From Tieghemostelium lacteum (taxonomy: Eukaryota; Evosea; Eumycetozoa; Dictyosteliales; Raperosteliaceae), in NCBI GenBank assembly GCA_001606155.1, contig LODT01000025.1:124001-188000 (forward strand): DNA of 64,000 bases, read 5' to 3'. Below the pieces are notes generated by a model, which was given only the letters and a program-made list of their open reading frames with translations, searched no databases and was not told where the DNA came from. The translations under genes were made by a program, and so were the position numbers. This document shows positions 13,921 to 41,434 of the stretch, in pieces. Each line of letters starts with the position of its first letter. The first letter of the stretch is position 1.

Positions 13921-13937
13921 GGCTTTTTGATTTTTAA

Positions 13938-15184: not shown

Positions 15185-18100
15185 ATGAAATCTATTGCAA
15201 TAGTTTATATATCTGTACTTTTCCTATTGTTTGTTGATTTCTCTAGTGGGGTATTAAATCCTAATCAAGGTAAATAGCAGGATGATATAGAGGAACTTAG
15301 AGAAGTAGGTTAGATATTAATATCTAAACATTATAGCAACCGCAATATCAAATTTAAAAACTGAATATTCACAAACTTGGGATCTAAGCAATATATGTTT
15401 AAGTAATCCAGTTGATATTGTTTGTGATTCAACTGAAACTGTTATAGTTGAATTAGTAATTACATTTACGGGTTCATATACCCTATCGAATTCAATATAT
15501 GCATTAGTGAATTTAACTTCATTGTAGGTACACAAACCGTTTGAGTAACCGATTAGGATTATTAATATAAATATAAATATAAAATAGAACACTTCCAAAT
15601 TCAATGGCAATACCAAACAGTATATGGAATAGTTTGAATTCATTACCTTTCCTTAACACTCTAAAAATTGATTTTATAAACACAACACTACCCAGTGATC
15701 TTGGTTCATTTTTTCCAAATTCATTGACAAAATTGTATGTGTATTTGTAACTATTGATCATTTTAGGATAATGGCATTACATATTAATAGATCTTTAATA
15801 ATTGTAGTATTGTATCACGATCATCACAACAATTTCCAACAACACTTTTCACTAATACTAAACTAAAATCAGTGTCTATTGGTGCTTCAAATTTTGAAGA
15901 TTATGTAAATTATCCATCTAGTATTCCATCTCCATCACTTGTAGAGGAAATGTAGGTTAATTATACAATCTAAAAATTCATTAAAACTAATATTTATAAA
16001 ACTCATATAGAACAGTTACAAATTATGGTTCATTTAATATGGTTGGAACTAATTTTAATAATTTAAAGAAAATGTATGACCTATTTCTAAAAATGTATAA
16101 TAATGATTAATGCTAATACCAAAAATTGATTTTTATTGAATACAGTGATATAACACATAAATTGCAGCAGATTACATATGATAGTTATCATACATTTACA
16201 GCACTTGAAATTCTAGTTATGACAATTAGTTCTATACCTTCATTACCTCCATCACAATTTCCAAATAGTTTATTTAACTTGACAAATTTAAGATCATTAA
16301 CAATTACAGATCAAACATTAATGGTTGGTCCACCAGTATTAGATTTCTCAAGATTACCATATTTGAATTTGATGTATGTTCTCTATACAAAATGATTATT
16401 ATATAGACTCTAAACTAACTATCATCATTATTATAAACTAGATATTTAAGTGGATTGGGAGGTGTTTTAAGTAATATTGTGTACCCAGGTATAATAATAT
16501 CACCAAGAGTTTTGAATAAAGTTGATCTATCAATATACTATGCAAATATATATCCATCAAAATTCAATTGGTCAGTTTATAAAACTGTGTATGTATATAC
16601 TATTAATCAAAACCTTAACGTTAGTAACTTAAATACTTATTTATATATATATATACTATTTATAGATCATTAGCATCTGATACATTTGAAGATGCACTTC
16701 CAGAACAAGATTATTCAAATATTGATAATTTCTATATTGTAAATAATTATGATAAACCATTACCAAATGCATTATGTCAAGTAAAGAATGGTATAACTGT
16801 ATCCAATACTGCAATTACCACTGTACCTGATTGTTTTATATGTGATTGGGGTGGAAGTACCAATGTATTCCTTAATAATTTAAATTTACCTGTCTATGTT
16901 CAAGTCTGTCGTATGTATATTTTATAGTATTGAAATTTAATGAATATATGTATATTAATTTTGATATTATAGCATCATTTTCAATTACAAATAATACACG
17001 TTTGATTGATACTGCTGGTGGTACAATGATTATTGATGGTGTGAATTTAGGTTATGTTGTGTATAAGTCTAATGGTGATCCTTTTGGAAATCAGAAGGTA
17101 TTGATAGGAAATTCAAAATTGACAATGGAAATTCCTTCTGGAACTGGAAAGGGTTATGCACAGCTGGCTAAATTTCATTATGCTGCTAATAATTCAGTAC
17201 CTTTTCTTGCGTTGAATTATGCGTACTATCCACCATTACCTAATGCATTTCAGGCTACTGGTGTGAAATCTGTGAATATTGTTGGAAAGTATTTTGGTGA
17301 TAATGCAGCTTTGGTAGATGTAATGGTGGCTGGTGAAGATGTAACTTTGACTAGTGTTTCTCAAACCTCTATTGAGTTGCCTGATGGTGTTGTGCATTAT
17401 ACTAAAGATCTTGTTTTAAGTGTAAGGGTTACTGTTAATACTCAAGAGACTTTAAAAGTAATTACACCACATGGATATAACCCACTAATGAATAGTCCAT
17501 TACCAGTTTTATATTCAACTGGTGGTTTGGTTGAGTTCTCTGGTCAGTATCTAACCTATGATACCACCATAATGAACATGACCGTAAACGGTTTACTATT
17601 TTCAAATAATATTACAGACTCAACAAGTACTGTATTGATAATTAAATATGACCCAATACCTTCTGGATCTTATAACTTTGTATACAATCAAAATGGATAT
17701 CAATTGATTGATACTATTACAGTTAAAGACCCTCCAAGTTCAGGTAGTCCATGTAAAGGTACTCCAGTTTGTGGAGGACCTCAACAAGGTCAATGTATAA
17801 ACAGTCATTGTGAATGTTTAAATGGTTGGTTAGGTGAACAATGTGATTCAAAACCAACTGTAATCCCACCTCCACTTGAACCTGACACCCAACAACCAAA
17901 TTTCAACACCTCAACTGAAGAAATAGCTCTTCATGTATCAATTCAATCAATAAGAGAATTAAGTTTTGATGGTACACAACTCAGAGAACAACCAATCGAA
18001 CAATGGAAATTCTCTCAAAACTCAACAGATGAAAAGAAAAGATACACCTATGAAGCAACTCTCTTTACAAATTGTAAAATACAAGTTACAGTTGATTATT

Positions 18101-18735
18101 TCTTAAAAGACAGTATTGTATCATTTGCAGGTCAGAATTCAACTAAATTAGCTGGATCAATTAAATATAGTGCAAAGATCACTGATTGGCCATTCACTCA
18201 GAAAACCAATCAACTTCAATTGATATTCTCATCAATTATTCAAGATCAATCATCATCCTCTTCATCATGTTCATACAAGGCAATTGAATATGAAGACAAC
18301 CAAATCAAAGATTCAATTAAAAAAGTTAACATTCAAGTGAATGGAAACACATTTTCAACTGAATTCAGTGGATTGGCAGTTATTGATGGAATCAACAGAA
18401 AAATCAAGAATAGTTTAGTTCCAACATCAGAAGAAGATACCAACACACAATCAACATCATTAGTTGGTATCACAACACCTTATCATAACGAATATATTAT
18501 CATTGATCCTGATTTCAGTCTTTTGGTATCTTATGTTCCACCAGAAGACAAAGAAGGTTCTGTATGTTCAACATCCAAATCCAAACTCACTACAGCAGAA
18601 TTAGCAGGTATCATTGTTGCATCTGCTGTTGTAGGTTTAGTTATCATTGCTACCATTATTTATTTTACACTCTCTAAAAACCTTAAAGCTAAATTACTTC
18701 TGTATTCCATTAAATCCAAAGTCACAATGAAATAA
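15185..18735 (+). CDS. gene A: ComC-like LRR-IPT/TIG-EGF membrane protein
   Basis: Nine exons: 15185-15269, 15337-15523, 15588-15734, 15808-15951, 16011-16073, 16146-16373, 16442-16588, 16666-16910 and 16973-18735, giving 1002 aa. The signal peptide (from MKSIAIVYISVLFLLF) leads into irregular leucine-rich repeats (residues about 30-400) closed by a Cys cap (CFICDWGG). IPT/TIG-type beta domains follow (about 420-665, including PVLYSTGGLVEFSGQYLTYD), then an EGF-like module (about 674-709, CECLNGWLGEQC), the ComC-type beta domain (about 720-950) and one membrane helix (about 957-980) with a short basic tail. Introns inside the LRR half are all phase 2. The architecture is that of dictyostelid ComC/Tgr-like surface proteins, used in cell-cell signalling and recognition. 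Its 3' half is nearly identical to gene B. Confidence 0.85.
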
Positions 18736-18901: not shown

Positions 18902-21900
18902 ATGAATAGAATAAACTTTGGAATTATAAGTACACTGTTGATTTTATTAAATTTCACTAATGTTTCCTATGGTGTATTAGATACTATTCAGTGTAAGTAA
19001 TCATAAATAGTGTACTACAAAATCAATAACATATTTATTAACTATAAAATTATAGCATTGGCATTGGACGCTTTAAAGAATGAATATGAACAAATTTGGG
19101 ATTTATCAAATCCTTGTTATCTAAACCCTGCTACTATAACATGTGATACAACTCAAAGTGTTGTAACTTATCTTACATTTGATGAACCAACCAATGCACA
19201 CACACTTACCAATACATCAATTTTTGCATTGGTAAATTTAACATATTTGTAGGTGGAGACATAAAGATAAAAACAATAACAACAGATATACTAATAGATT
19301 TATTAAATAGATCAATACCATATAGAATGTTTGTTGGTGATGAAGTTTGGAATCAGTTATATGCTTTAACACATCTTGAAACATTTCAAATTAATTATAT
19401 AAATTATGCAGTTCCAGCTAATGTCGGAACTTATTTTCCAGCATCTCTCTACAATTTGTATGAATAACTTTTACAACTATATAGATATTATTAAATATTA
19501 ACACAATGAATAGTTATGTAGGTAGCTCATCAGTAATGTTTCCAGAAACTATTTTTACCAAAACTCACATTAAAGAGATATCCATTGGTAATAACAATGG
19601 TGAAGAATATTCAGTATATCCAACAATAATATCATCACCTTCAGTTTTAGAACAAATGTATGTTGTGATAGTCAAAAGATAAACTACATAACCAACTACT
19701 AACTATGTTTCTATATTACCACAGAACTGTTGTAACCTATGGATCATTCAATTTAAGTGGAACTAATTTTAATAGTTTAAAGAGAATGTAGGTTTAATAC
19801 AAAAATATAAAATAGTTCTCATGAACTTAATGTAAACTAATGATTTGAATATTTAGAATAATGACACACAAGAGTCAGGCTACCTATAATCTTTATAATA
19901 CATTTCCAGTTATTGAAAATATAGAAATAACAATAGATGCATCAGTATGGGGTAATGCTTTTTTCCCTACTAGTGTACTTCAAATTCCTACACTAAAAAC
20001 ACTAAAAATCAATGACTTAGATAAATTTCAAAGTTCAGTAAATGTATTAAATTTCACATTAAGTCCACTTTTAGATGATTTGTAAGTCAATTTATACAGT
20101 AGAAAAATATCTACAATTCTAATTCATAGCTATATATTAGATATCTTGATAAAATAGGATCTATAGTACCTTCACTTGTATATCCAGGAATTGTAGTTTC
20201 ACCTCAATCTAAAGTTAGCCTTAGTATTTATAATACTGCTTTAGATTTAATAAATTATGCATTTGCTGATTTCTATACAATGTATGTTTAAATAGATGGA
20301 CGTTGGTTATAATATAGGTTAATTAATTAATAATGATATGTATACTATTAGAAATTTAAAGTCAATTACATATACTGGTTCATTTCAGGAACCTGATATG
20401 AGTAAGGTAGTAAAATTTATTATGGAAGATGGTGACTATGCACTAGATATACCATATTCATTTTGTCAAATTCAAAATGGTATAATGTTAACTAATACAC
20501 CTGTAACAGGTTTACCAACATGTTTTATTTGTGACTGGGGTGGTGGTACTAGTACTTTTAATGGAAACACTGCATTACCTGCTTATTCTCAAACATGTCG
20601 TATGTATTTATAATTTAGTTTAGAAATTGAGAAAATGGTAAATATTTACAATTGATATTATTATAATTGGTATAGCATCACAATTAATTACAGGTAATAC
20701 TAGATTAATTGATACTGCTGGTGGAAAAATGCATATTGAGGGTGTAGATTTGGGATATCATATTTATAATCAGTTTGGTACTCAATACGCAACTGATATA
20801 GAATTGGCAAATTTTAACTTATCATTTCTAGTTATGGGTGGAACTGGAAAGAATCTTACTCAATTTATTAAATTACATTTTGATGCTGATAATTCAGTAC
20901 CAACTATTTCGTTGCCTTATAGTTATTATCCACCATTGTTGAGTGGGTTTCAGTCTATAGGTCCAAAATCAGTTAGAATTGTTGGAAAGTATTTTGGTAG
21001 TAGTGTTGGGTTGGTGGGTGTGGAGTTTGCTGGATATTCTGTGTTGGCAAGTACAGTTACTCAGACTGGTATTGATATGGTTGCTGGTAGTGTACCTTAT
21101 ACTAAAGACCTTACTTTAAGTGTAAAGGTTATAGTGGACGATCAAACTACTGTAACGGTACTTACACCACATGGATACAACCCAATTATGAGTAGTCCAT
21201 TACCAGTGTTATTTTCAACTGGTGGTTTGGCTGAATTCTCTGGTCAGTATCTAACCTATGATACCACCATAATGAACATGACCGTAAACGGTTTACTATT
21301 TTCAAATAATATTACAGATTCAACAAGTACTGTATTGATAATTAAATATGATCCAATCCCATCTGGATCTTATAACTTTGTATACAATCAAAATGGATAT
21401 CAATTGGTTGATACTATTACAGTTAAAGACCCTCCAAGTTCAGGTAGTCCATGTAAAGGTACTCCAGTTTGTGGAGGACCTCAACAAGGTCAATGTATAA
21501 ACAGTCATTGTGAATGTTTAAATGGTTGGTTAGGTGAACAATGTGATTCAAAACCAATTGCAATTCCACCTCCACTTGAACCTGATACTACCCAACCTTC
21601 TTTCATCGCCTCTAAAGATGATATAGCACTTCATGTATCAATTCAATCAATAAGAGAATTAAGTTTTGATGGTACACAACTCAGAGAACAACCAATCGAA
21701 CAATGGACATTCTCTCAAAATACCACAGATGAAAAGAAAAGATATATCTATGACTCTAAACTCTTTATTGATTGTACAATTCAAGTTACAGTAGATTATT
21801 TCTTAAAAGACAGTATTGTATCATTTGCAGGTCAGAATTCAACTAAATTAGCTGGATCAATTAAATATAGTGCGAATATTACAAATTGGCCATTTACTCA

Positions 21901-22453
21901 GAAAACCAATCAACTTCAATTGATATTCTCATCAATTATTCAAGATCAATCATCATCCTCTTCATCATGTTCATACAAGGCAATTGAATATGAAGACAAC
22001 CAAACCAAAGATTCAATTAAAAAAGTTAACATTCAAGTGAATGGAAACACATTTTCAACTGAATTCAGTGGATTGGCAGTTATTGATGGAATCAACAGAA
22101 AAATCAAGAATAGTTTAGTTCCAACATCAGAAGAAGATACCAATACACAATCAACATCATTAGTTGGTATCACAACACCTTATCATAACGAATATATTAT
22201 CATTGATCCTGATTTCAGTCTTTTGGTATCTTATGTTCCACCAGAAGACAAAGAAGGTTCTGTCTGTTCAACTCCATCCAAATCCAAACTCACTACAGCA
22301 CAATTAGCAGGTATCATTGTTGCATCTGCTGTTGTAGGTTTAGTTATCATTGCTACCATTATCTATATTTCATTATCTAAAAACCTTAAAGCAAAGATAT
22401 TCTTCTATTCCATGAAATCAAGAGTCTCTATGAAATCTCTATCGAAACTATAA
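18902..22453 (+). CDS. gene B: ComC-like LRR-IPT/TIG-EGF membrane protein
   Basis: Nine exons: 18902-18992, 19056-19248, 19311-19457, 19514-19657, 19726-19788, 19857-20081, 20141-20281, 20352-20599 and 20676-22453, giving 1009 aa. Same order as gene A: signal peptide (from MNRINFGIISTLLILL), LRRs, cap CFICDWGGGT, IPT/TIG domains, EGF-like module at about residue 675, ComC-type domain, membrane helix, basic tail. Exons 3, 4 and 5 have exactly the lengths of gene A (147, 144, 63 bases). Exon 3 start was fixed by alignment (LSIPYRMFVGDEVW against gene A LTLPNSMAIPNSIW). The LRR half differs from gene A in most residues, whereas from about 21240 onward long stretches are almost base-identical. 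The product is probably an intact receptor or adhesion protein. Confidence 0.85.
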
Positions 22454-23059: not shown

Positions 23060-26000
23060 ATGTTCCTAATAATGTGTAAATACAACATTCTTTTATTGTT
23101 ACTTATAATAAATGGTATTTATTGTCAATTAAATATCACCCAATGTAAGTTTGAAAAAACTAATATTTCTCCAAAGTAAAATTTAGAAACTCACATCAAC
23201 ATACACAAACCCAAAATAGACAATGCATTGGTGAATATTAGTAATATTCTTTCAATGAATTGGGTATTAGATATCAATAATGTTTGTAATTTTAATGCTG
23301 GTATGGAATGTGAAAACAATGTGGTAACAAGAATTTATATTACAACTGTATCACCACCTCAACAAATACCAGATGAGTTATTCATTTTAGAAAATTTAAC
23401 ATCAATGTACATATCTACTATTAAATATCCTATAAATATAACATGTTATATTAATTAAAACTATAATATACAGAGAAATTGTTGGATTAACATTAGGTAC
23501 ATCATTTTGGGATAATATATCACAGAAACTACAATCAATAGGATTTATCTATATAAGTGAGGTAACTGAACCATTACCTACAAACCTTGGTATGATTTTA
23601 CCAAGATCACTAACAAACATGTATGTCTACAACTGATCAATGTACCAACTGTCACACTAATATTTTGATATTCATAGGAGGTTATTGAAAACCAACTACT
23701 CAATACCAGTTTCACTATTTACTCATGGTAATTTTGATGAATTAACATTAGCAACTGATAATTCTGATGATTTTGATGTATTTCCACATTTTATACCTAC
23801 TCCAAATACTGCTTTAGTTAGATTGTATGTAGTGTGTAATTTGATATTTTAAACATAGTAAATAACACTAAAACTCCCTTTATTTAATGTAGAATTATAA
23901 AAGCATATCCGTCATTTGTATTGGCAGGTAATAATTTTACAGTATTATCAGATCTAACAATTGAATTTGCAGGACCTACAAATACAATGACATATAATGC
24001 ATTTGATAGTTTTCCAGCATTGACTATACTGAGGTTAGCATTCAATGCAGAGATACCTACATTTGATATTAAATCATCAATATTTAATATACCTAAACTC
24101 ATAGCACTTCAAATGCTTGATAACCAAAGGGTAATATTACCATCACAGACTTTAAATTTCACAAATTCACCAAACATTTCAACTTTGTAAGTTAAAATCT
24201 ATTTTAGATTTGTGATTAGAATAACTTTGATACTAATGTGTATTTAATCATGGGTATGTAACAGTGATATTCAATCATCAACTATGCTTGACCAGTTAGT
24301 GTATCCTGGTTTTATATTGGTAAATCAAATGGATGGTTTATATGCTACTGGTGGATCTGTAGTGGATTTATCTAAATTTAATGTATTTTTATTTAAGGAT
24401 ATTACATTCTATCAGTCAACTATAGTTGGCGATTTTCCAGATGGTAATTACTCGCAATCTAATAAGATTGAGATTCAAGATGGATATAATGGTGTAATTC
24501 CAAATTCATTTTGTTTACTACCTGGAGGTGTACAATTAGTTAGAACTGGTATAACATCAGTTCCTACATGTTTTCAATGTGATTGGGGTACTGAAAATGT
24601 AAATTTATTTATTGACAATAGTGGTTTACCGGTATATACTCCAAATTGTCGTAAGTAATCTGAATGTATAAAACTACATTAGAGTATAAAAATTAACTAT
24701 GAAATTTTATTAAAAGCCAATTTAGATGTAGTTTCAAATACTGGAAAGATAAATACTTTTAATGGTGTAATGATTATTGAAGGTACAGATTTAGGTTGGA
24801 TTGTTTATAGTGAGACTGGAGTGGCATTGAATACTAGTGTAATGGTTGGTAATGAAAAATTGAAGATACCAATACCTGAAGGAACTGGTAGATTTAAGAA
24901 TATAGTTGTGAAGTTTCATTTTGTTGCTGATGCTGCGACAGCACCTTTTACATTGGATTTTGATTATCAAGGACCTACTATAAGTTCAATAGCTGGAAGT
25001 GAGAGTAAGTTGGTACTGTTTGGTGAGAATTTTGGTGTGAATAAGTCGGTGATAACATTGATTGCTGCTGGAAGACAATTGGGTGTTAATTCAGTTACAC
25101 ATGGTAGAATGGAATCTGATCCTGGGTTTATAATGTATGATTCAAATATAACATTAAGTGTACAGGTGTTGGTTGATGGTCAAGAGTATTACCAGACCTT
25201 TGATGCTGGACAACCAGTACTGTATCAACCTTTACCTGTTCTATATTCCACTGGTGGCTATGTTGAATTTTATGGTGAATATCTAACTTTTGATACAACA
25301 TTGATGAATATGACAATGGGTGATCAAGTACTTTCTAATCAGATTCAACAGTCTACTAGTACATTTTATCTGATTAAGTATGACCCAATACCTGTTGGAC
25401 AGTATCCATTGGTATTTAATCAACTTGGGTATCAGTTGTCTACTGTGGTCACAGTTAGAGATGCTGATAGTATACCATGTAAAGGTACACCTATTTGTGG
25501 TGGTCCTAGTAAAGGTATATGTATTGATAACAAATGTGAATGTGTATCACCATGGAGAGGAGAAATATGTGATTCAACTCCAATTATAATTCCACCTCTT
25601 GACCCTAACACCAGTGAACCTTCAGTAAATTCAACTGATGGTAAAATTGCTTTGTATATTACTATTTTGTCAATAAGAGAACTGGATTACAATGGAGCTG
25701 AAGTACGAGAAGAACATATAAATCAATGGATATTCTCACAAAATGCAACTGGAATTGAAAAGAAAAGTTATGTATATGAAACCAGTCTCTTTTTAAATTG
25801 TAAAGTTACAGTGACAGTCGACTATTTTAATCAAGATTCCAAGGTATCATTTGCCAATGTAAATTCTACAAAATTGGCTGGATCTATAAAGTATAGTGTT
25901 ACTATATCTCATTGGCCATTCCTTATGAAAACCAATCAACTTCAATTGGTATTCTCAACCTCTATTGAAGACACAGAGGATTCAGATGACACATGTTCAT

Positions 26001-26464
26001 ATAAGGCTATAGAGTATGAAGATGATAATCAAAAAAAAAATGTTAGAATTGTTGATATTCAAGTAGGTGACAGAACACTCTCTTCCACATTTTCAGATTT
26101 GGCAGTAATAGATGGTGTAGTTAGAAAAATTAAAAATGTATTGGTAACTCTATCTAATGATGACGAAGATGCCAATTCAGAATCACAATCCTATATAGGT
26201 ATCACTACACCATATCATAGTAACTATATAACTATAGACCCAGATTTCAATCTCATGATTTCCTATGTTGAACCACAAGATAAAGAAGGTTCAGTTTGTG
26301 CATCTCCCAAATCAGGATTAACCAAAGCACAGTTGGCAGGTATCATTCTAGCTTCAGTTGTTGTATTTATAGGTATCATCATTGCCATCGCATATATATA
26401 TATATCAAAATCTTTAAAAACTAAAATATTCCTATATAAAATAAAATCAAAATTATCCCTTTAA
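23060..26464 (+). CDS. gene C: ComC-like LRR-IPT/TIG-EGF membrane protein, fewer introns
   Basis: Seven exons: 23060-23144, 23220-23406, 23474-23620, 23678-23824, 23893-24186, 24265-24650 and 24717-26464, giving 997 aa. Signal peptide (from MFLIMCKYNILLLLL; a start at the in-frame ATG at 23072 is possible), LRRs, cap CFQCDWGTEN, IPT/TIG domains, EGF-like module at about residue 667 (CECVSPWRGEIC), ComC-type domain, helix and basic tail. Relative to A, B and E, the introns between exons 5/6 and 7/8 are absent and the coding sequence runs straight through. Its 3' half is clearly related to A/B but not homogenised with them. It converges with the next gene with only 14 bases between stop codons. 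Confidence 0.85.
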
Positions 26465-26478
26465 CTTTAATATTAAAT

Positions 26479-27540: not shown

Positions 27541-27929
27541 TATTTATTTTTTTCTCTATTAAATTAATGATGACGACTAATTAAATGATATCAAAGGTTT
27601 TTATAAAAGTACTTGAAAAATTAGAAGGTTTTAGATATTTAGATATTTTAAATAAAAACTTTATTTTTTGTAAAACCAAGAAAATCTAAATATCTAGTTA
27701 AATTGAAGAATAACTACGCATTCAAGAATTTATGACCTTTAAACAGAAACAAAGTAAAATTTACCCGTTGCGAGATATGGGTACGATATTGTAATCTTTC
27801 TGATGCTTATTATATGGTATTAAAAATAGTTGCAGTAAATGAGAACTCATCACCTGTTTATGAATTAAAATTGATTTCTTTAAAATTTAAAATTCCTTTT
27901 TTTGATTTACTTGTGAATTGCTATCTAAT
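27541..27929. other. spacer before gene D relic
   Basis: Upstream region of the secreted protein gene. An imperfect inverted repeat (TAGATATTTAGAT near 27633 against ATCTAAATATCTA near 27688) is visible. From about 27750 a plus-strand frame without ATG is open for some 60 codons; it does not match exons 1-2 of the paralogues and I do not call it. Confidence 0.4.
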
Positions 27930-30900
27930 TTTTGGTTGGATTAAGTATATTGCAATATCTACAAACAATGGTTGTAAATAAGATATCAGAGATGATGCCT
28001 ACAAATGTTGGTGTTAATTTTCCAACTTCTTTAATAGATTTGTAAATATTATTAAAATATTATATGTTCCTGGATCTAGAATTTGTTTTTTTAACATTTA
28101 TTTAAAACGATCTATAAATCAGCATATCCATTTCCAGATACTCTTTTTACAGCTTCAAAATTAGAAAAGAAAGGCTGGCTTTGGATAATACAGTGGATTA
28201 AAGTGTATTTCCAGTTTCACTATCAGGTCCATCATCCATACAATACCTGTTAGTACTATACTTTCAAATTAATCTACAATCCAATTTATTAATTTTAATA
28301 TCTTCATACATAGTTATAAAGTATCATATGGATCATTTAATTTGGATGGTTCCCAATTTCCAAATATTACATCATTGTAAGTTGTAAATATTAAAATCAA
28401 ATTGATTTAGAAATTTAATGTATTAATTAAATCATTTAGATTATTAATGTTTAATGGTGCATCAAATCCTATGTTATATAATTTATATAATACATGGAGT
28501 GCTACAACACTTAATATTCAATATGATTCATCAGTACCACTGTCTTCATTTCCAAATAGTATACTCTCAATGACATCTCTTCAATATCTAACATTTTCAG
28601 CATCTAATAGACTGATAGCTGATAGTTCAACTCTAACTATAAATTTGGCATTTCTACACTCTCTATCAGTTCTGTAAGTTTTCAAAATTTAAAATTATCT
28701 TATTAAATCTTCATATTAACAATATATTAAAATATAGACAAATAGATTCATTCCCACTAGGAGATATGAATTATCCTATATTTACATTTGCCTCAGCATC
28801 AAAAGTTACTGGTTTGATAATTAATTGTGTTTTAGATTTTCAAGATTTAAATTTATTTGCATTTTATTCATTGTATGTATATAATGGTTATAGACTCTAT
28901 AGAGTTGATTACACATTTTTACTTACTTTTAAAATATTATAGATATATGACTTCATGTGTATTTATGAGTAATTTACCTACTGGAAACTACTCAACAATG
29001 AATGTAGTATCTATCACTGATTCAATAAGTTACACTGGACCTATACCAGAATCAGCATGTGCTGCTAACCAGTTAGCTGTATCAGGTTCAGGTATTACAT
29101 CTTTACCATCATGTGTAATATGTGAATGGGGTAACCCTGCTATAATTAATCAATTTAATAATAATCCATCTTTAATTCAAAATTTAAATGGTGTTGTTAG
29201 ATCATGTCGTAAGTATTATAAATGATAAACTAAGTGGTATTTATAAAACTAACGTTTGATAATTTTTTAAAATGCAGCTAATTTTGATATAACATCAACA
29301 ACACCTACTATTCCAACTATTGGTGGAAAAATGGATGTAAAGGGTGTGGATTTAGGTTGGTTAATTTATAATGATCAGAATGTAGAATATCCATCAGCTC
29401 AGTTAGTTATAGCTAATGAGTATTTTAAAGTACCTATACCACCAGGTTCAGGTATTGATAAAACTGTTGCTTTTAAATTTCATTATGCAGCTAATCCATC
29501 TACACCTGTGATTGTTGTTACTTTTAGTTATTCACCACCAACTTTAACAAGTATGCAACCAAGTGGTCAGAATATAGTTAAATTTGGTGAAAATTTCTGT
29601 ACCGATTCATCATTGATACAAGTGTATTTTGCTGGTATATTAACTGAATTGGATATTGTAGATTATTCATATATAACTACTAAAACCAATGTGTTACCTT
29701 ACGAATACAATTTGATTGTAAATGTAAAAGTTGTAATTGATGGTCAGTCTGTTGAACAAGTATTTAAACCTACTGATGTATTTGCAACAGTTCTAAACCA
29801 AACATTCCCAGTTTTATATTCTGGTGGTGGTTATGCAGAATTTACTGGTGTTTATCTTACCTATGATACAACAATAATGAACCTGACTATAAATGGAATT
29901 CTATTCTCATCGAATATTGTTGAATCTAGTAGTACTAAATATATAATTAAATACGATCCTATACCAGTTGGATCCTATCCATTGTTATTCAATCAATTAG
30001 ATTATCAATTATCAGGTACAATTCAAGTTACCAGTCAACCACCATGTCAAGTTGTTCATGGATACTGTTATGGGTCTATAGTTAAATGTTATCCACCATA
30101 TATAGGTCCTGATTGTAGCTCAATACCCGCTAATCTCACTAGAATTCCATTTAATACTTCTCAACCTGTCATTCAAACACCCAACACTTTTCAAACTGTT
30201 TGGAAAGGTGAGGTTTACAACTTTAAATTCTCAATATCTCCTAAATCTCTTCAAGAACTGGATTCTAGTGGAAACCTAGTTGCTAACTATCTACCAACAG
30301 TAATTACAACACAGAATCTGACTGAACCATATTCATCACTATTCTCCTACCAAGGTGCACCTCAAAATGGAAATACTGCTGATGTTTATAATATAATTCG
30401 ATGGTATCCTGAATATTACACCGATACAAATGCATTGAATGAAAATGTTGTAGAACTACCAAGTTCCTATAGATACCAAAATGCTTTGACTCATTATAAC
30501 TTTGTTTCACCATCTAATTTGGAATGTTCCAATTCAATTTTGAAATGGTTAATCCTACAACTTCCCTATGTTCTAGAGTTGTATCTGGACTTGAACCAAC
30601 TCAAATTGATGTTGATTACATGAAATTGAAAATCAACTATTTGAATTTCTATACTAGAATCTATAAGAACACAGTAGTGGGTACTGAATTAGACCAGCCA
30701 TTAAACTATACAATCTCTACAATTTCTCAACTATCACAATCCATCAACCAAGAATTTACAGCATTTATACAACCTTGGGCTTCGGGTACCTTTGTCTATG
30801 AATTTGACTTTACAGTTTTATTTGATGAAACTTCAGCATCATCTGAACAAACTGCAATATGTAACAATTTCACACCAGCTCCTACAACACCATCGGTTAA

Positions 30901-31921
30901 ACCATGTCCTGGTACACCAGCTTGTGGAGGGCCTTCTCAAGGTACATGTGTAAACAGTCAATGTCATTGCACTCCACCTTGGAAAGGGTACCAATGTGAT
31001 TCTAAAGATGATACACTACCTCCAATTGACAATCCTGATACTTCAAAACCAACAATCACACAAACTAAAGATGATATTGCAGTTCATATCTCTATTGTAT
31101 CCATCAGAGAACTAGATTTCAGTGGTAGTTTAGTGAGAGAAGAGTCACTATCAAACTGGGTATTCTCTCAAGACAAATCAGACAAAAAGCAAACATTCCA
31201 ATATCAAAACTCTCCATTTGGAACCAGTATCGATAACACTAAAATTCATGTAACAGTTGATTATTTCTATAAAGATTCACAAGTTGAATTTGCAGGTCAA
31301 AGTTTCTCAAAATCAACAGGATCATATAAATACAGTGCAAATATAACCAATTGGCCATTTTTAAAGAAAACAAATCAACTTCAGATTGTATTCTTATCAG
31401 GTGCAAGTGATAATCAAGATTCTGATAATTCATGCACTGTAAAGAATATTGCATATTCTCAAGATGTGAATGGAGATCTTGAAGATAACGTTGAAATTGT
31501 TTACATTCAAGTGAATGGTCAAACATTTCAAAACAAATTCATCAATTTGGCAATTGTCGATGGAATGATTCGCCAGATTAATAATATACAATTACCAACT
31601 ACAGAAGATGACAGTAACACACAATCCAATTCACTTGTTGGTGTTCTGACACCTTATCATGAAAACTTTGTTGTCATCGATCCTGATTTCAGTTTACTTG
31701 TATCCACTGTTCCTGCTGATGAAAAAGAAGGTTCAATATGTTCATCCAATTCCAAATCATCAGGATTAACCAAATCTCAATTGGCAGGTATCATTGTTGC
31801 TTCTGCTATTGTATTTATATGTATCATTGTATTATTATCCTATTTTGTTCTTGCTAAAAACCTAAGAGCAAAGATTCTTTTCCACGACATCAAATCGAAA
31901 ATCACATTAAAAAGTCGTTAA
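27930..31921 (+). pseudogene. gene D: ComC-like long-form pseudogene
   Basis: Remains of a gene like E. Exons 1-2 are not found. Exon 3 survives only as its end (to 28041: MMPTNVGVNFPTSLID). Exon 4 (from about 28123) carries a frame change and a stop. Later exons look good: exon 5 (to about 28378), exon 6 (28440-28675), exon 7 (28739-28873), exon 8 (28943-29206) with cap CVICEWG, and exon 9 from 29279. Within exon 9 the frame shifts by one near 30530: reading stops at 30623, and the other frame, open from 30524, continues to 31921 through EGF (CHCTPPWKGYQC), ComC-type domain and membrane helix. Unless the assembly is wrong in several places, this gene makes no full product. Its 3' part is almost identical to gene E. 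Confidence 0.8.
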
Positions 31922-32044: not shown

Positions 32045-35000
32045 ATGATCTCAATTCGACACATTGTTATCATATTAATTTCATTAGGTTTCATTTCTAA
32101 AAGTTCCCACGCACTAATACAAAATCAATGTAGGTTAACTAGATCTTATGATTTAAAATTACAAACAAATAATTGTTAACAATGGTTTTTGAAAATCACT
32201 AGATGACGCATTGGTTTCAATAAATACAGCACTAGGACAAAATTGGAATTTTGATACATCAAATGTATGCACGCAGGTTAATTTTAAATGTGATTCTACC
32301 AATACAGTTATAGTTTTAATGAATTTAGTAGATCCTGGTGTAGTATCTTTACCAATGCCAAGTGCAGTCTATCTATTACAAAATTTGACAACATTGTAAG
32401 ATATATATCTAAAAATGCATAGTTATCAAATTTAGTACCAACACTTTAAATTTAATTTTTAGAAATGTTCCAGTTCATATAAACATAGGTTCAGATTTTT
32501 GGAATGGAATTTCTTCTTTTAATTTTCTGACATATTTATATGTCACAGAGTTAACAGAGGCATTACCAGATAATATAGGATTAATTCTACCACGATCCCT
32601 TGAGACACTGTATTTATAGAATCTTTTTTATTTTAAAACATAAAATTATAAATTATTAACATTATTATACAGTCATATACTAGTATCAATATATTCCATT
32701 CCAGAAAGTTTTTTCTCCAAATCGAATTTAAAATCAGTAACATTATTAACCTTAAATACCGCAGAATATTATGTATTACCAACAACTTTATCACAACCAT
32801 CTCCATTAGAAGAAATGTATGTAAATTCATTAATTATACTTTAACATTGCTTTTACTAATTATTTTTAAAATATAGGTATACTGTATCATTTGGATCTTT
32901 TATGCAAGGCACCCAATTTCCAAATTTGACACTTTTGTAGGTAATTTTTTTTTATTTTGATATTTAATGATTTTAAATGTATTTAGCTAATTGAAATGTA
33001 TAATAGGGGTATTCGACATAAAGGTTCAACTAATCCAATGTCATACAATTCATACAATACATGGCAAGCTACAAGTCTAACTATATATAACGGAGAGGTA
33101 CCAATGCATACATTCCCTACCAGCATTCTTTCAATGCCAAAACTACAATTTTTATTTTATGATACCGGTAATAGATTATTAGGATCGAATTTCATTTTGA
33201 ATTTCTCAAATGTAATGACACTTATTGACCTGTATGTATTGAAAAACAACCTTAATATCTAATAATAATGTCAATCTAATAATTTTTTCTACAGAAAACT
33301 TTATTCATTCCCAATATCAGTTATGTCATATCCAGCATTTTCATTTTATAATCGACCTAGTGTATTTATTTCAAATAGTACTATAACTTTTTCTATTTTA
33401 AATATGTTCAGTTTTAGTTCTGTGTAGGTATTTTTAATACTAAAACCATTTTATATTTTTAAATATATAAATTAACCTAAGCTTATTAACAATATATATA
33501 TATATATATATAACTAGTTATTTTGACAAGTGTGTATTTTTAAATAATTTACCAAATGGAAACTATTCCTCTTTATATAGTTTAACAATTGCAGATTCAC
33601 CAGCATTTACTCAAAATATTCTAGATTCAACTTGTCAATTAAAAGATTCTTTATCAATTACAGGTACAGGTATTACATCTCTACCATCATGTTTCATTTG
33701 CGAGTGGAACACTCTTAAATCTAGTTTTACCAATAATCCTTCATTACCAGCCTATACTCAATCATGTCGTAAGTATTCAAATCATATTTCTTAAAATTAA
33801 TAGGAATATTAATTTTTAATCTACTTAGCTGGTTTTCAAATTTTAAATAATACAAATGATATACCTACCAATGGTGGTAAAATGGATATTAATGGTTTGA
33901 ATTTAGGTTGGAATATTTATAATCAATACAATTTTGAGTTAATAAACAGTCAATTATTGGTTGGTAATGAAAAATTCACTATTGAAATAGGTCCTGGATC
34001 AGGTGTTGGTAAAGTTACAAGTGTTAAATTCCATTCTGAAGCAAATCCACATGGACCTGTTTATGAACTATCTTACAAATACCAGGCACCACAAGTTTAT
34101 AATGCATTTGAACAAAATGGAAATGCTCTATTTATAAATGGTACTAATTTCTTTGATGATTCATCTAAAATTCAAGTTTACATTGCTGGTAAACTTGTTG
34201 GTACTGATGGACTTACCTATTTTAGTATTATAACTAAAGTAAACACTGTGAAATATGGTCAAGATCTTATTGTATCGCTTAAGGTGGTTGTTGATGGTCA
34301 ATCTACACAAACGATTGTGGCACCTGCTCAACCATTTTCAACAGTTCTAGATCAAACATTCCCAACTTTGTACTCTGGTGGTGGTTATGCTATTTTCACT
34401 GGTGAATATCTTAGTTATGATACTACCATTATGAATCTAACTGTAAATGGTATAATGTTCTCATTGAATATTGTTGAATCTAATAGTACCCAATATTTAA
34501 TTAAATATGATCCTATTCCACCTGGATCCTATCCATTGGAATTCAATCAATTAGGCTATCATCTATCAGGTACTATTCAAGTTAATAATTCACAAACTTG
34601 TCCAGTTGTACATGGATATTGTTTAGGGCCTAAACCAGTTTGTTATTCACCATATACTGGACCTGATTGTAGTTCACTACCAGCTAATCTGACTAGAATT
34701 CCTTTTAATGATTTCCAACCAATCATCCAAACATCGAATACTTTTCAAACTGTTTGGAAAGGTGAAGTTTATAACTTTAAATTCTTTTTAGCACCAAAAT
34801 CCATCCAAGAAATTGATTCTAGTGGAAATGTAGTTGGTAACTATTTACCAGTTGGGTCCTACACTCTCAAGAAATTCCCAGATTCTAGCAGTTATACAAG
34901 TCCAAAAATGAATAGTACAACATTTGTTAATGCATACGAATGGTTTCAATGGTTTGGTATTACTCGTACATCAACTGGAGACGATACTCCACTTGTACCA

Positions 35001-36419
35001 TCAACCTATTTTTACACCATGTCTACCACTACATTAAATACTAACCATTTTGAATACAAATACCAAATCACATTTGAAATGGTAAACCCCACAATTCAAC
35101 TATGTTCAAGAGTTGAAACAGGACCACTTCCAACTCAAGATGATGTAGATTACATGAAACTAAAACTGAACTATTTGAATTTATATACTAGAATATATAA
35201 ACACACTGCTGTAGATGTTAATCAGGTTGCATTGAACTATACAACCAAAACAGTTTCTCAACAAGCGCAATCAATCAACCAAGAAATAACTATAACATCA
35301 CCAAATTCCGAATTGTTTAGTTTTGATTTGGATTTTACAGTTTTATTTGACGAGAAATCAGCATCTTCTGAAGCATCTCCAATATGTAATAATTTCACAC
35401 CACCTCCAACAACTCCATCTGATAAACCATGTCCTGGAACACCTCAATGTGGTGGAGCATCTCAAGGTATTTGTAATAGTGGTCAATGTCAATGCATTGC
35501 ACCATGGAAAGGGTATCAATGTGATTCCAAAGGTGGTACATTACCACCTACTGACCCTGACCCTAATAATCCAAACCTCAACCAGACTACAAATGATCTT
35601 GCCGTCCACATCTCTATTGTATCCATCAGAGAACTAGATTACAATGGTGTACTAGTAAAAGAACAACCACTCTCCAATTGGACTTATAAGAAATATCCAC
35701 CAACTACAGAGAAACAAACCTTCCATTATCATGTAGCACCATTTGCAAACAATAATGAAACTGTAATCTCTGTAACAGTTGATTATTTCTATAAAGATTC
35801 ACAAGTTGAATTTGCAGGTCAAAGTTTCTCAAAATCAACAGGATCATATAAATACAGTGCAAATATAACCAATTGGCCATTTTTAAAGAAAACAAATCAA
35901 CTTCAGATTGTATTCTTATCAGGTGCAAGTGATAATCAAGATTCTGATAATTCATGTACTGTAAAGAATATTGCATATTCTCAAGATGCTGATCTTGAAG
36001 ATGATGTTGAAACTGTTTATATCCAAGTTAATGGTCAAACATTTCAAAACAAATTCATCAATTTGGCAATTGTTGATGGAATGATTCGTCAAATTAGAAA
36101 CATTCAGTTACCGGATACAGAAGATGACAGTAACACACAATCCAATTCACTTGTTGGTGTTCTGACACCTTATCATGAAAACTTTGTTGTCATCGATCCT
36201 GATTTCAGTTTACTTGTTTCCACTGTTCCTGCTGATGAAAAAGAAGGTTCAATATGCTCAAAATCAAAATCTAAGTTCACCAAAGGTCAATTGGCAGGTA
36301 TAATAGTCGGAAGTGTTGCAGGCTTCATAGTTCTTGCTGTCATTCTAGGTTATATCCTGTCCAAAAATGTAACTGTAAAAGTACTCTTACATAAGACTCA
36401 CATCATTAAAATGAAATAA
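32045..36419 (+). CDS. gene E: ComC-like LRR-IPT/TIG-EGF membrane protein, long form
   Basis: Nine exons: 32045-32129, 32203-32395, 32463-32609, 32673-32816, 32877-32936, 33007-33231, 33295-33423, 33518-33768 and 33829-36419, giving 1274 aa. Signal peptide (from MISIRHIVIILISLGF), LRRs, cap CFICEWN, IPT/TIG domains, a short EGF-like module (about 665-690, CYSPYTGPDC), an extra beta domain of about 240 residues starting at the TVWKGEVYNFKF segment, a second EGF-like module (about 945-980, CQCIAPWKGYQC), the ComC-type domain and a membrane helix near 1230-1252. The extra domain and second EGF make it longer than A-C; F and G share this layout. Exon lengths 3 and 4 (147 and 144 bases) equal those of A and B. 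It is probably the intact partner of pseudogene D. Confidence 0.85.
33491..33512. repeat. (AT)n microsatellite in gene E intron 7
   Basis: About ten AT dinucleotides lie immediately before the splice acceptor of exon 8. The length is likely polymorphic. Confidence 0.6.
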
Positions 36420-36558: not shown

Positions 36559-38916
36559 ATGTTTACATTTTTTATTTATTTAATTTTATTTATAAATTTA
36601 ATACAAATAATTTCTAGTAGTGTAGTAATTACTAGTTGGGAACCAGGTCCTGTTACTTCAAAAATTTCAGGAACTGGGTTCAATAGTGATGTAAATTCTA
36701 TAGTTAAGGTTGGAGGTGTGATTGCATCTGTAATTAATGTAACTGATACCACTATAAATCTTCAATTTAATGGAATGATTTACAGCACGAATGATACCTC
36801 ATTTTCAATATCTATTGTATTATCAAATGGTCAGAGTAATTCTGTGATACTTTATGGTCCAGCATACACAATTACAAAGTATCCCAAGGTTTACAAATCA
36901 GGAGGTTATATGAAAATAGTTGGAACTTATTTATCCTTTGATCCCAATGTAATTTCATTTGTGGTTAATGGTAATAATTTAACTTTATATTCGGGATCAT
37001 CTACAGAATTGATATTCAAATATGGTGAATTACCAACAGGATCTGTATCATCTATGTTTACACAAGGTGGAATTGCTAAAGATCAAGTATTGGTGGTTTC
37101 AAGTATCCCACAATGTACAGGTTTGTCACCATACAATGGTATATGTCTTGATGGTGTATCAGTATGTTTAAATGCATGGACTGGACCAACATGTCAATCA
37201 TTATCAGCAAATTTTACACAACCATCTTGGGGTCCAAATCCTAATATATCAACTCAAAACTATATAAACTCTGATTTTAATTTGGATACTCTTCCAGTGA
37301 GGTACTCTAAATATCTAGTTGGAATACAAGAATTAAATAATTTAAATCTTGTATTGAGATATTTTGAATTTTCAAATTGGATATACACGAATATATCATC
37401 TACCAAGACTATTTATTATATTGAAGGGTTTCAAACTGAAAATCCAACATCTAATATATCAGTAATAGTTGAATACTACCCATCACCCACTAGTAAATAT
37501 ATTCAATCTACATTATCATATATAGTCCAAGTCAATGGATACACTCTTAATAGTACTACTAATCATTTAGGATTAGTTTATGGAAGTAATTTTGAAACTT
37601 CACAAACTGTTGGTATTTGCAGTTCATCAAATATTCAAATTCTTCAATCTGACAAAAGTTTTTATTACTCTCAGTTGAAGCTTAACTATGTGAGTTTATA
37701 CAATAGATTCTCAATGAAATATATATCAGGTGGAATTGAATTCAATGGTGCATCTTTTAGTCATGATGCACTTCAACAAACAGCCTATTCCATAGTTGAA
37801 ATAGCTATATCATTATTTCCACAAAATGTAAATTCATTTGAATATAATTTCGATTTCAATGTGCTTTACAATATAGATTCCGCAAGTGGTGATTCGAATA
37901 AAATCTGTATACCTAAACCACCTGTAATTGTACCTTGTAAAGGTACACCTGAATGCGGTGGCTCTGATCATGGTCTATGCAAATCTGGTAAATGTGAATG
38001 TATATTACCCTGGGCTGGTGAAATGTGCGATTCAGTTAGAGGACCTATACCAGACCCAGAACCAAATCCAACTCAACCAAGTATCAATTCAACAACTGAT
38101 GATCAAGTTCAACTTCATATTTCTATTGTATCCATAAGAGAATTGGATTACAATGGAAATGAAATTAGAAATGTTCCTTTAGGAAACTGGACTTTAAAAC
38201 AATCAAAAACTGATCAAAAGCAAACCTATTTCTATCAAACTTCGTTGTTTGATGGAAACAGCGAAGTTAAAGTAACAATTGACTATTTCTATAAAGATAC
38301 CGTTGTATCATTTGCAAATCAAAATTCAACGAAATTAGCTGGTTCTATAAAATGTAGTGCAAATATAACAACATGGCCATTCACTCTAAAAACCAATCAA
38401 CTTCAAATCCTCTTTGCATCATCAATTAAAGATCAGAATGAATCATCAGAATCATGTTCCTATAAATCCATTGAATACAATCAACAAGACGGTGTTGAAA
38501 ATGTATTCATTCAAATCAATGACAAAACATTTTCAATTAAATTCTCTGAATTATCAGTTGTAGATGGTGTTGTAAGAGTCATTAAAAATCAAGTTGTTCC
38601 GAACACCATTCAAGATACCAATACAGAAACTTCTTCGTTAATAGGTGTAAATACACCCTATCACAACTATTATGCAGTTTTAGATCCTGATTTCAATCTG
38701 TTAGTAAGCTATGTTTCACCAGATGAAAAAGAAGGTTCAATATGTTCATCAAATTCCAAATATGCATCAGGATTAACTAAAGCTCAATTAGCAGGTATTA
38801 TTGCAGCCTCCTCCTTCGCAGGTATATGTTGTATTTTAATACTTGGATATTTCCTATCAAAAAATGTATCAGTAAAAGTCTTTCTTCATAAAACTCACAT
38901 AATAAAAATGAAATAA
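36559..38916 (+). CDS. gene F: intron-free ComC-like IPT-EGF protein without LRRs
   Basis: A single exon of 785 aa. The signal peptide (from MFTFFIYLILFINLIQI) is followed directly by two IPT/TIG-like domains (about 22-190; VYKSGGYMKIVGTYLSFDP marks the second), an EGF-like module (about 192-220, CLNAWTGPTC), the extra beta domain shared with D/E (about 225-455), the second EGF-like module (about 459-495, CECILPWAGEMC), the ComC-type domain (about 510-735) and a membrane helix (about 740-762) with a basic tail ending KTHIIKMK, as gene E also does. The LRR half of A-E is absent. It is 139 bases downstream of gene E on the same strand. Confidence 0.87.
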   Translation: MFTFFIYLILFINLIQIISSSVVITSWEPGPVTSKISGTGFNSDVNSIVKVGGVIASVINVTDTTINLQFNGMIYSTNDTSFSISIVLSNGQSNSVILYGPAYTITKYPKVYKSGGYMKIVGTYLSFDPNVISFVVNGNNLTLYSGSSTELIFKYGELPTGSVSSMFTQGGIAKDQVLVVSSIPQCTGLSPYNGICLDGVSVCLNAWTGPTCQSLSANFTQPSWGPNPNISTQNYINSDFNLDTLPVRYSKYLVGIQELNNLNLVLRYFEFSNWIYTNISSTKTIYYIEGFQTENPTSNISVIVEYYPSPTSKYIQSTLSYIVQVNGYTLNSTTNHLGLVYGSNFETSQTVGICSSSNIQILQSDKSFYYSQLKLNYVSLYNRFSMKYISGGIEFNGASFSHDALQQTAYSIVEIAISLFPQNVNSFEYNFDFNVLYNIDSASGDSNKICIPKPPVIVPCKGTPECGGSDHGLCKSGKCECILPWAGEMCDSVRGPIPDPEPNPTQPSINSTTDDQVQLHISIVSIRELDYNGNEIRNVPLGNWTLKQSKTDQKQTYFYQTSLFDGNSEVKVTIDYFYKDTVVSFANQNSTKLAGSIKCSANITTWPFTLKTNQLQILFASSIKDQNESSESCSYKSIEYNQQDGVENVFIQINDKTFSIKFSELSVVDGVVRVIKNQVVPNTIQDTNTETSSLIGVNTPYHNYYAVLDPDFNLLVSYVSPDEKEGSICSSNSKYASGLTKAQLAGIIAASSFAGICCILILGYFLSKNVSVKVFLHKTHIIKMK

Positions 38917-39037: not shown

Positions 39038-41434
39038 ATGAAGATTTATATCCTGATTTTGATATTTTTTTGTATATTATGTTCAAATGCGCAAATCACT
39101 ATATCATTGTGGTCACCAGGAAAAATATTTAGTACAATTACAGGAAATGGTTTTAATAGTAATAGTAGCGCTCTCGTTAAAGTTGGTGGTATTGTGGCAC
39201 CTGTTCAATCTGCAACAGACACTGAAATAATATTAAATTTTGATGGTAGAAAATATGTGATGAATGACACCTCATTCTCTATAATAATTGATATAGGTAT
39301 TTATGCTCTCTCTCAAGTATTTTCAGGTCCCCCATATCAGATTACAACATTTCCACCTATCTATACGCAAGGTGGATATGTTAAACTTATTGGTAATTAT
39401 TTGTCTTTTGATCCTAGTTTAATTTCCTTTTCTATAAATGGTCAAGTTACAACACTTTATTCTGGAACTTCAACTTATTTGATATTTTTGTATAGTGCCA
39501 CACCCGCTGGTTATGTTACATCTAATTTTATACAAAATGGTGTGTATAAGTCACAGACACTGTCAGTGCTTGACCAGGTGCCTTGTGGAGGTATATCATC
39601 AGCTTTTGCCATTTGTGTCAATGGAAATTTGATATGTCTAGATCAAAGAACTGGACCTTTATGTGAATCCATCTCAGCTAATTTCACTCAATCAACTTGG
39701 TCAAATACACTTCCAACTATAAATTCAACTGTGGTTACTAGTAACTTTAATGGTAACCAATTACCAGTTAAATACACTTTGATACCTACTTCAATTTCAG
39801 AATGGACACTAGAGTCAGTTCTTGTTAGAACTTATAATTTGAATAGTTTAGTATGGACTGTCAGTCCTATAAATGCACTAGCTAATTACTACCTAAACAG
39901 TGATTTCCAAGGACCCGGTTCACCATCATCTATTGGTATTCTATTAACCTATACGGCAGTGGACGCTGATGCTACCTATGGTACAACACCAGTAAATTTA
40001 CAACAGGCTACAATGACAACTACAATTACCATCAACAACTACAGTTACTTGAATACCTCAAATTATATAGTAATACAATTTACTACTACATTTGATTCTC
40101 CAGGTAGTACAAATATTTGTGGTTCTGTATTATATGGGGAGCTTCCAACATCTGTGGACACCTTCCAATATTCACAACAACAATTTAACTATGTCAGTTT
40201 GTTTAGTAGATTTTTTAAGAAGTTTTTGAATAAGGATTCCGTTGAAAGTGGTCTATCGTTTATCAATCAAGAACATGATCCAACTACTCCCAATACAATC
40301 AAAAAATATACCAATATATATTTCCCACCAAATACAACTATATTGACATATTTTATGGATTCTATTATTCTTTATAATTGGGTATCTGCAAGTACAGCTG
40401 CTTCTGCAGTTTGTAAGAATGAAAGTATCCCAACTCCACCAGTAAATGTACCTTGTAAAGGTACACCTGAATGCGGTGGTTCTGATCATGGACAATGTGT
40501 ATCTGGTAAATGTGAATGTGTATCACCATGGACTGGTGAAACTTGTGATTCAGTTCGAGGTCCCATTCCAGAACCAGAACCAAATCCAACCCAACCAACC
40601 ATCAATTCAACTGATGATAAAATTCAACTTCATATATCTATTGTATCCATAAGAGAATTGGGTTTCAATGGAAATGAAATTAGAAATGTTCCAATTGGAA
40701 ATTGGACTTTAACACAATCTAAATCCGTTGAAAAGATTTCATATATATATGAAACTTCACTGTTTAGTAATAGCTGTAAAATTTTAGTAAATGTTGATTA
40801 TTTCTATAAAGATACCGTTGTATCATTTGCAAATCAAAATTCAACTAAATTAGCTGGTTCAATTAAATATAGTGCAAATATAACAACATGGCCATTCACT
40901 CTAAAAACCAATCAACTTCAAGTCCTCTTTGCATCATCAATTAAAGATCAAGATGAATCATCAGAATCATGTTCCTATAAATCCATTGAATACAATCAAC
41001 AAGACGGCGTTGAAAATGTATTCATTCAAGTAAATGACAGAACATTTACAACTAAATTCTCAAACCTTTCTGTAGTAGACGGTGTTGTAAGACTCATTAA
41101 AAACCAATTATTACCAAATTTCATAAACGACAGTAACACTCAATCCAATGTATTAGTAGGTGTAAATACACCATATCACAATTACTATGTTTTAATAGAT
41201 CCAGATTTCAATCTGTTAGTCAGCTATGTTTCACCAGATGAAAAAGAAGGTTCTATATGTGGCACTTCATCTTCAAAATCCAAACTCACCAAAGCACAAA
41301 TAGCAGGTATCATTGTTGGCAGTGTTGTAGCATTCCTTTGTATTGTAATTATACTAGTTTATTTCCTAACCAAAAGTCTAACATTTAAAATACTACTTCA
41401 TAAAACTAAAATATTAAAAATGCCAAATAAATAA
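39038..41434 (+). CDS. gene G: intron-free ComC-like IPT-EGF protein without LRRs
   Basis: A single exon of 798 aa. I set the start at 39038 (MKIYILILIFFCILCSNA), a clean signal peptide; the in-frame ATG at 38921 would add 39 polar, Lys-rich residues before it and lies only 5 bases from the stop of gene F. Layout as gene F: two IPT/TIG-like domains, EGF-like module (CLDQRTGPLC), extra beta domain, second EGF-like module at about residue 471 (CECVSPWTGETC), ComC-type domain, membrane helix near 754-776, basic tail. The region 40795-41000 is nearly base-identical to gene F 38280-38490, while the 5' halves differ strongly. Probably a surface receptor or adhesion protein. Confidence 0.87.
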   Translation: MKIYILILIFFCILCSNAQITISLWSPGKIFSTITGNGFNSNSSALVKVGGIVAPVQSATDTEIILNFDGRKYVMNDTSFSIIIDIGIYALSQVFSGPPYQITTFPPIYTQGGYVKLIGNYLSFDPSLISFSINGQVTTLYSGTSTYLIFLYSATPAGYVTSNFIQNGVYKSQTLSVLDQVPCGGISSAFAICVNGNLICLDQRTGPLCESISANFTQSTWSNTLPTINSTVVTSNFNGNQLPVKYTLIPTSISEWTLESVLVRTYNLNSLVWTVSPINALANYYLNSDFQGPGSPSSIGILLTYTAVDADATYGTTPVNLQQATMTTTITINNYSYLNTSNYIVIQFTTTFDSPGSTNICGSVLYGELPTSVDTFQYSQQQFNYVSLFSRFFKKFLNKDSVESGLSFINQEHDPTTPNTIKKYTNIYFPPNTTILTYFMDSIILYNWVSASTAASAVCKNESIPTPPVNVPCKGTPECGGSDHGQCVSGKCECVSPWTGETCDSVRGPIPEPEPNPTQPTINSTDDKIQLHISIVSIRELGFNGNEIRNVPIGNWTLTQSKSVEKISYIYETSLFSNSCKILVNVDYFYKDTVVSFANQNSTKLAGSIKYSANITTWPFTLKTNQLQVLFASSIKDQDESSESCSYKSIEYNQQDGVENVFIQVNDRTFTTKFSNLSVVDGVVRLIKNQLLPNFINDSNTQSNVLVGVNTPYHNYYVLIDPDFNLLVSYVSPDEKEGSICGTSSSKSKLTKAQIAGIIVGSVVAFLCIVIILVYFLTKSLTFKILLHKTKILKMPNK

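Follow-up and report, generated by a model that had tools for sequence, protein, structure and literature searches.

We analyzed a window of 64,000 nucleotides of Tieghemostelium lacteum (assembly GCA_001606155.1, contig LODT01000025.1, positions 124,001 to 188,000 of the forward strand; all coordinates below count from the first nucleotide of the window). It is AT-rich eukaryotic DNA, with a GC content of 29% and short introns; the ComC_SSD and CfaA_B_C domains encoded in it are in keeping with a dictyostelid origin. Positions 15185-41434 are occupied by a head-to-tail row of seven ComC-like genes, all on the plus strand: the intact genes A, B, C, E, F, and G and the pseudogene D. A pair of polysaccharide-lyase-like genes lies on one side of this array and the GAPDH gene on the other. 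Units A-G were found where a preliminary description of the same DNA had placed a tandem, same-strand array of ComC-like genes, and the mixture of intact genes and a pseudogene that it had proposed was seen as well, with six open proteins and a dead unit D. The exon models used throughout were codon-plus-splice-site predictions checked against three-frame translations; they contained 30 introns with a mean length of 68 bp. The coding GC content of the array was 31.6%, compared to 34-39% for four flanking open frames. Transcripts of four species have GC contents of 28.1, 35.7, 35.6, and 31.2% (PMC5282741), and comparison with these values did not single out one species.

We observed three domain layouts among the seven units, not the two that had been claimed earlier. 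The first layout consists of a signal peptide, a leucine-rich repeat (LRR) head, three IPT-like domains, an EGF-like domain, the ComC supersandwich domain (SSD), a transmembrane (TM) helix, and a short basic tail. It was found, by exon models and Pfam, in genes A (15185-18735; 9 exons, 1002 amino acids (aa), LRR exons at 15337-16910, for which the LRR profile described below was used as well), B (18902-22453; 9 exons, 1009 aa, LRR exons at 19056-20599), and C (23072-26464; 7 exons, 993 aa, LRR exons at 23220-24650). The first exon of gene C was picked by hand, and an alternative start is situated 12 bases upstream, at 23060. The second layout, in which the LRR head and three IPT domains are followed by two EGF-SSD modules and the TM helix, was that of gene E (32045-36419; 9 exons, 1274 aa, LRR exons at 32203-33768; exon model and Pfam) and of pseudogene D. 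The third layout was assigned by the same means to the intronless genes F (36559-38916; 785 aa) and G (39038-41434; 798 aa), where a signal peptide is followed by two IPT domains, two EGF-SSD modules, and the TM helix; the LRR head and the first IPT domain are missing. The LRR domain is present in five of the seven units, as had been proposed, although in D it is decayed.

Pseudogene D (27905-31921) retains decayed LRR exons, an IPT region, and a first EGF/SSD module that can be followed until about 30500; the frame is broken between 30500 and 30527. The 3′ part of D is an open frame coding for EGF, SSD, and TM segments (30518-31918, plus strand). We found nothing in D matching exons 1-2 of gene E, while an exon-3-like and an exon-4-like stretch remain; by eye, we identified a stop and a shift of frame in the exon-4-like one.

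The ComC_SSD domain (PF22933, cut-off 24 bits) scored above the cut-off in all seven units, with 55.4-62.3 bits in A-E and with 51.2 and 52.9 bits in F and G, where a separate scan of the C-terminal segment was needed to see it. The EGF-like domain DUF7949, which adjoins the SSD, was above the Pfam cut-off in all seven units as well. Thus, from the design suggested in the preliminary description (signal peptide, IPT/TIG, EGF, ComC domain, and membrane helix) these two elements stood in every unit, but the IPT/TIG cut-off was reached only in E and, barely, in F; the matches in A, C, D, and G were below the cut-off, and Pfam listed none for B. The IPT counts of three or two and the tails were read from the alignment by eye, as were the signal peptide and the single membrane helix of the six intact genes. 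Low-confidence structural models had predicted helices at 540-567 of the last exon of A and at 753-779 of G. A fold search with the G model placed the Met and plexin extracellular regions on top (E-value 7e-6), with low TM-scores and with the matched part of G unstated. The short basic tail, as read from the sequence, has no recognizable signaling domain.

For the paired modules of D, E, F, and G, cross-matches between the first and the second module (F 184-393 and 471-613, E-values 7e-5 and 3e-5) support an internal duplication as their probable origin; the first SSD-like copy of the two-module units was left unscored by Pfam. The NCBIfam search produced no matches for three proteins at E<=0.01. 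When the exon-9 alignment was used to screen prokaryotic genomes and viral contigs, 16 and 43 pattern matches, respectively, were obtained, and none was confirmed; two short peptide patterns were used in each screen, and distant relatives could escape them.

The LRR head spans exons 2-8 in A, B, and E, and takes up from five to seven exons across A, B, C, and E. The intron phases are 1,2,2,2,2,2,2,1 in A, B, and E and 1,2,2,2,2,1 in C. The head is, therefore, flanked by phase-1 introns, one located directly after the signal peptide and the other directly before the first IPT domain. A module bounded in this way has the anatomy of an exon-shuffling unit, and the head would be a set-off module of this type. 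We also observed that gene C, at 23893-24650, has two introns fewer than A, B, and E at the matching positions, which indicates either intron loss in C or intron gain in A, B, and E.

All the heads were below every cut-off of the Pfam LRR models, with a sub-threshold match at most in one of the four intact heads. A profile built from the heads of A, B, C, and E matched LRR ectodomains in PDB with the best E-value of 1.4e-8. In total, the profile matched 27 PDB sequences at E<=1. The top seven of them (1.4e-8 to 1.5e-6) are, by name, plant-type receptor kinases and SERKs, and the LRRC8 channels come after them. We infer that 9uob_A, one of the PDB matches, is a plant protein. The match to At5g25930 takes in the W...C...C N-cap region. 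For 8 of 14 intervals, the spacing of the hydrophobic LxxLxL-type columns is 22-28 columns, and 52 of the 408 head columns, including six cysteines, are invariant in all four heads. Judged by the profile match, this exon module, newly described here, appears closest within PDB to the ectodomains of plant LRR receptors.

Three identical tracts connect neighboring units of the array. Genes A and B share 150 bp (17708-17857 and 21408-21557) from the end of the last IPT domain into the EGF domain; pseudogene D and gene E share 186 bp (31249-31434 and 35771-35956) in the SSD; genes F and G share 55 bp (38438-38492 and 40953-41007), also in the SSD. All of these are on the plus strand. In the surroundings of the D/E tract the identity was 0.56 in the two preceding windows and 0.87-0.96 in the following ones; a second near-identical stretch is located at 31604-31738, and past it the identity was 0.53-0.58. 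For the A/B pair, the synonymous divergence (dS) was 0.97 in the LRR head, 0.53 in IPT1-2, 0.12 in IPT3, 0.16 in EGF, 0.12 in SSD, and 0.27 in the TM segment and tail. Such values, about 1.0 in the LRR head and 0.12 in the SSD, agree with the earlier claim of diverged outer and similar inner halves. A likelihood change point for this pair fell at A residue 562, with none of 500 shuffles being as extreme, and the third-base mismatch was 0.40 upstream of this residue (n=257) and 0.08 downstream (n=401).

Runs of identity were assessed in the EGF-to-tail alignment of the seven units, where the longest identical runs at variable sites were compared with 2000 shuffles for each of the 21 pairs, with no correction for their number. 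The longest shared runs exceeded those of the shuffles in A/B, D/E, and F/G (p<=0.0005). We gave no weight to the short runs of 11-15 sites seen in C/G (p 0.0015), D/F (0.004), and C/F (0.04), since the test was uncorrected. In a test of the heads, which covered A, B, C, and E, none of the six pairs had such an excess, and weak shared runs were seen in IPT1-2 (A/B p 0.04, B/E 0.02, C/E 0.002). The membrane and tail segment of E was closer to F (0.65) and G (0.69) than to D (0.57), whereas the SSD of E was nearest to D (0.86); none of 10,000 shuffles matched this. In the 3′ flanks (120-170 bp) the sole common match was one of 18 bp between D and G.

Because of the run, tract, and segment tests, we concluded that conversion or unequal exchange acts mainly on the stalk and that the pseudogene participates in it. 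Protein constraint alone is ruled out as the cause of the likeness of neighboring stalks, since the silent sites are near-identical as well; the inner halves of neighbors are alike due to recent exchange and not only to constraint. A recent whole-gene duplication that would explain the A/B pair is disfavored by the change point within the gene together with the unlike 3′ flanks. The exchange tracts in the inner part of neighboring units, one of them involving a pseudogene, are newly described here.

Upstream of gene A, the two polysaccharide-lyase-like copies are located on the minus strand at 11762-12925 (PF14099 in the exon 11828-12487) and at 13876-14994 (PF14099 in the exon 13941-14600), both identified by Pfam. 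They are 89.6% identical across 1168 columns and have an identical stretch of 134 bp, suggesting a recent duplication or exchange. Between them, at 12995-13429 on the plus strand, we found an A-type relic made of LRR exons 3-4 and adjacent sequence. This relic is 74% identical in nucleotide sequence to 15489-15935, with a further 26 bp matching at 92%, and its amino acid identity is 83% to A residues 92-133 and 71% to residues 144-185. At 13686-13819, on the minus strand, there is an inverted D/E-type fragment of the first EGF/SSD-like module, with 73% nucleotide identity to 34682-34835 on the opposite strand and an amino acid match to E 704-720. The simplest account is that a lyase gene and an A-type gene were duplicated together and that the extra copy was then lost. 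Relics had been expected from the preliminary description; they do exist, but outside of the interval 15185-41434 to which it had assigned them. The lyase duplication and the two relics, newly described here, carry the family past that interval. With pseudogene D, the two relics, and the exchange tracts between neighbors, the earlier view of a birth-and-death family was borne out, and birth-and-death evolution with segmental exchange is well supported.

Several other genes were seen in the window. Between C and D, at 26482-27543 on the minus strand, there is an unrelated gene for a 354-aa protein with a signal-peptide-like start and an S/P/T-rich N-terminal region; it converges on gene C, and about 14 bp separate their stop codons. 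This protein had no Pfam match above the cut-off and no NCBIfam match. Close to the array, at 48637-49302 (plus strand), we found a gene with the CfaA_B_C (counting-factor-associated) domain, and at 57112-62618 (plus strand) an ECM29-like proteasome adaptor sequence extends across two adjacent open frames. Four open frames adjoining the AMPK-beta gene (1925-3424, 3538-4260, 4805-5530, and 5568-6404, all on the minus strand) had no Pfam match at the thresholds 0.01 and 0.001. A tRNA scan and an Rfam search at gathering scores returned no matches.

The likeliest reading, which we hold with slightly better than even confidence, is that single-pass surface proteins of the ComC type, with recombining stalks and with heads serving adhesion or recognition at cell contact, are encoded here by a cluster that evolves through birth and death. 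Tandem duplication would generate the copies, and segmental conversion or unequal exchange among neighbors would hold the stalk alike as the heads diverge. The distal part, i.e., the LRR head with the IPT domains in A, B, C, and E or the IPT domains alone in F and G, would be carried on the EGF and ComC-SSD stalk. The heads may bind a partner on another cell, and during aggregation the array could provide a set of different specificities for adhesion or recognition, all carried on the same kind of stalk. In D. discoideum, comC is listed with aberrant aggregation (PMC2873529).

Some of our results weigh against this reading. The AlphaFold models were poor, with mean pLDDT of 48.7 and 45.9 (the latter for G) and six sequences in the prediction. 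The counts of LxxLxL-like motifs were not above those of shuffles in any of the four single heads (p 0.18-0.42), for which reason we base the LRR assignment on the match of the profile. The dN/dS ratio, computed by NG86 for the six pairs of A, B, C, and E, was 0.54-0.83 for the whole head and thus below 1 in every pair; the head figures leave out the pairs that include F or G, whose "LRR" rows align signal-peptide residues. The ratio was 0.66-1.06 in IPT1-2, where only B/C exceeded 1, 0.18-0.45 in IPT3, and 0.21-0.36 in SSD. All these ratios are rough, because silent sites are near saturation outside of the A/B tract; with this roughness, what they show is a distal half under weaker constraint, not positive selection. 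The putative exposed LRR positions were not hypervariable: their identity was 0.263, compared to 0.285 in the remaining non-hydrophobic columns, and in this test, with four sequences only, 23% of random draws reached a value as low. This counts against a sharply hypervariable concave LRR face.

The ratios in the heads and in IPT1-2 would also be expected if the units were redundant ComC paralogues under relaxed constraint, with heads that are little held and stalks alike by chance exchange. The lack of a site-level excess of variability in the head and the death of unit D agree with such an explanation. Still, six of the seven units keep full open frames in the exon models despite deep divergence, and the invariant head columns, with their six cysteines, argue for constraint; on balance, we regard relaxed constraint as somewhat unlikely. 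A kin- or self-recognition locus, where the heads would be polymorphic among isolates and would sort cells at aggregation as a counterpart of TgrB1/TgrC1, appears doubtful. PMC3041686 reports kin discrimination for several dictyostelid species, two of which are D. purpureum and P. violaceum. On the other hand, the divergent shared-promoter pairing that characterizes tgrB1/tgrC1 (PMC12324515) is absent from an array whose seven units are all on the plus strand, head to tail, and the putative LRR face has no excess variability. The head dN/dS below 1 speaks against kin recognition as well, though in PMC12324515 the same is given for tgrB1/C1. Besides, this role could be filled by many other dictyostelid IPT/TIG proteins, of which Table 4 of PMC4931340 counts 55, 76, and 110 in the genomes of three species.

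Recognition of prey or substrate, in which LRR-headed receptors for the phagocytosis of bacteria would have diversified with diet, seems to us about as doubtful as kin recognition. An innate receptor set would fit LRR heads and lineage-specific expansion; expression of COMC has been reported for solitary Physarum amoebae (PMC8865844), and comC appears, with negative values in columns whose meanings were unchecked, among the D. discoideum genes tabulated as responsive to Pseudomonas aeruginosa (PMC2474670). Conversely, the aggregation phenotype listed for comC points away from a role in feeding. A stronger version of recognition, in which LRR-headed ComC proteins would act as self/non-self receptors where tgrB1/tgrC1 are absent, antigen-receptor-like in outline, is quite improbable. 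If true, it would mean exchangeable variable heads on a conversion-homogenized stalk, with dead copies like D joining the exchange. The array is a concrete candidate for recognition in dictyostelids: it is compact, its heads have diverged, and its stalks recombine. Even if the proteins served only adhesion or feeding, the array would still show how an expanded receptor family of slime molds evolves.

ComC of D. discoideum has EGF domains, a signal peptide, and a transmembrane anchor (S+T in Table 3 of PMC4931340), and the array proteins have EGF-like domains and, as read by eye in the intact genes, a putative signal peptide and membrane helix; they were likened to ComC by the Pfam domain name (ComC supersandwich). 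From domain names, the array probably belongs to the group OG5_153020 (IPT/TIG, EGF-like, C-type-lectin), which has 9 members in Ddis and is larger in other species, with 43 in Asub, 35 in Ppal, and 50 in Dfas (PMC4334915, Table 2). In contrast to ComC and this group, five units of the array have an LRR head, decayed in D, and the EGF-SSD module is present twice in four units. The array resembles TgrB1/TgrC1 in being a locus with duplication, recombination, and pseudogenes and, putatively, in coding for single-pass surface proteins with IPT/TIG repeats; it differs from them in the ComC SSD, EGF, and LRR modules. Duplication, pseudogenes, recombination, and dN/dS below 1 are described for the tgrBC locus in PMC12324515, and TgrB1 and TgrC1 are single-pass proteins, with a short tail in TgrC1 (PMC11088635, PMC4404348).

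The published sources disagree on tgr orthologues. In PMC12324515, the known recognition pair has one-to-one orthologues in the discoideum clade only, and just tgrM and tgrN are clearly orthologous in D. purpureum; PMC4931340 places comC and tgrB1 in the group-4 genes and gives tgrC1 for D. discoideum alone, and a D. purpureum tgrC1 orthologue had been listed earlier (PMC3188802).

The ectodomains of plant LRR receptor kinases (SERK, At5g25930, At4g26540) have the LRR head in common with the array, and At5g25930 has the cap as well. Unlike these proteins, the array proteins have no kinase, and their LRR part stands before the IPT, EGF, and SSD modules. This apparent similarity is one of repeat type and cap and does not imply descent. 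Among the matches listed in our literature search, whose scope left subscription papers mostly outside, there was no description of an LRR-headed ComC array. Our best reading is that the array is an expanded ComC-type IPT-EGF adhesion-receptor cluster within a known dictyostelid family.

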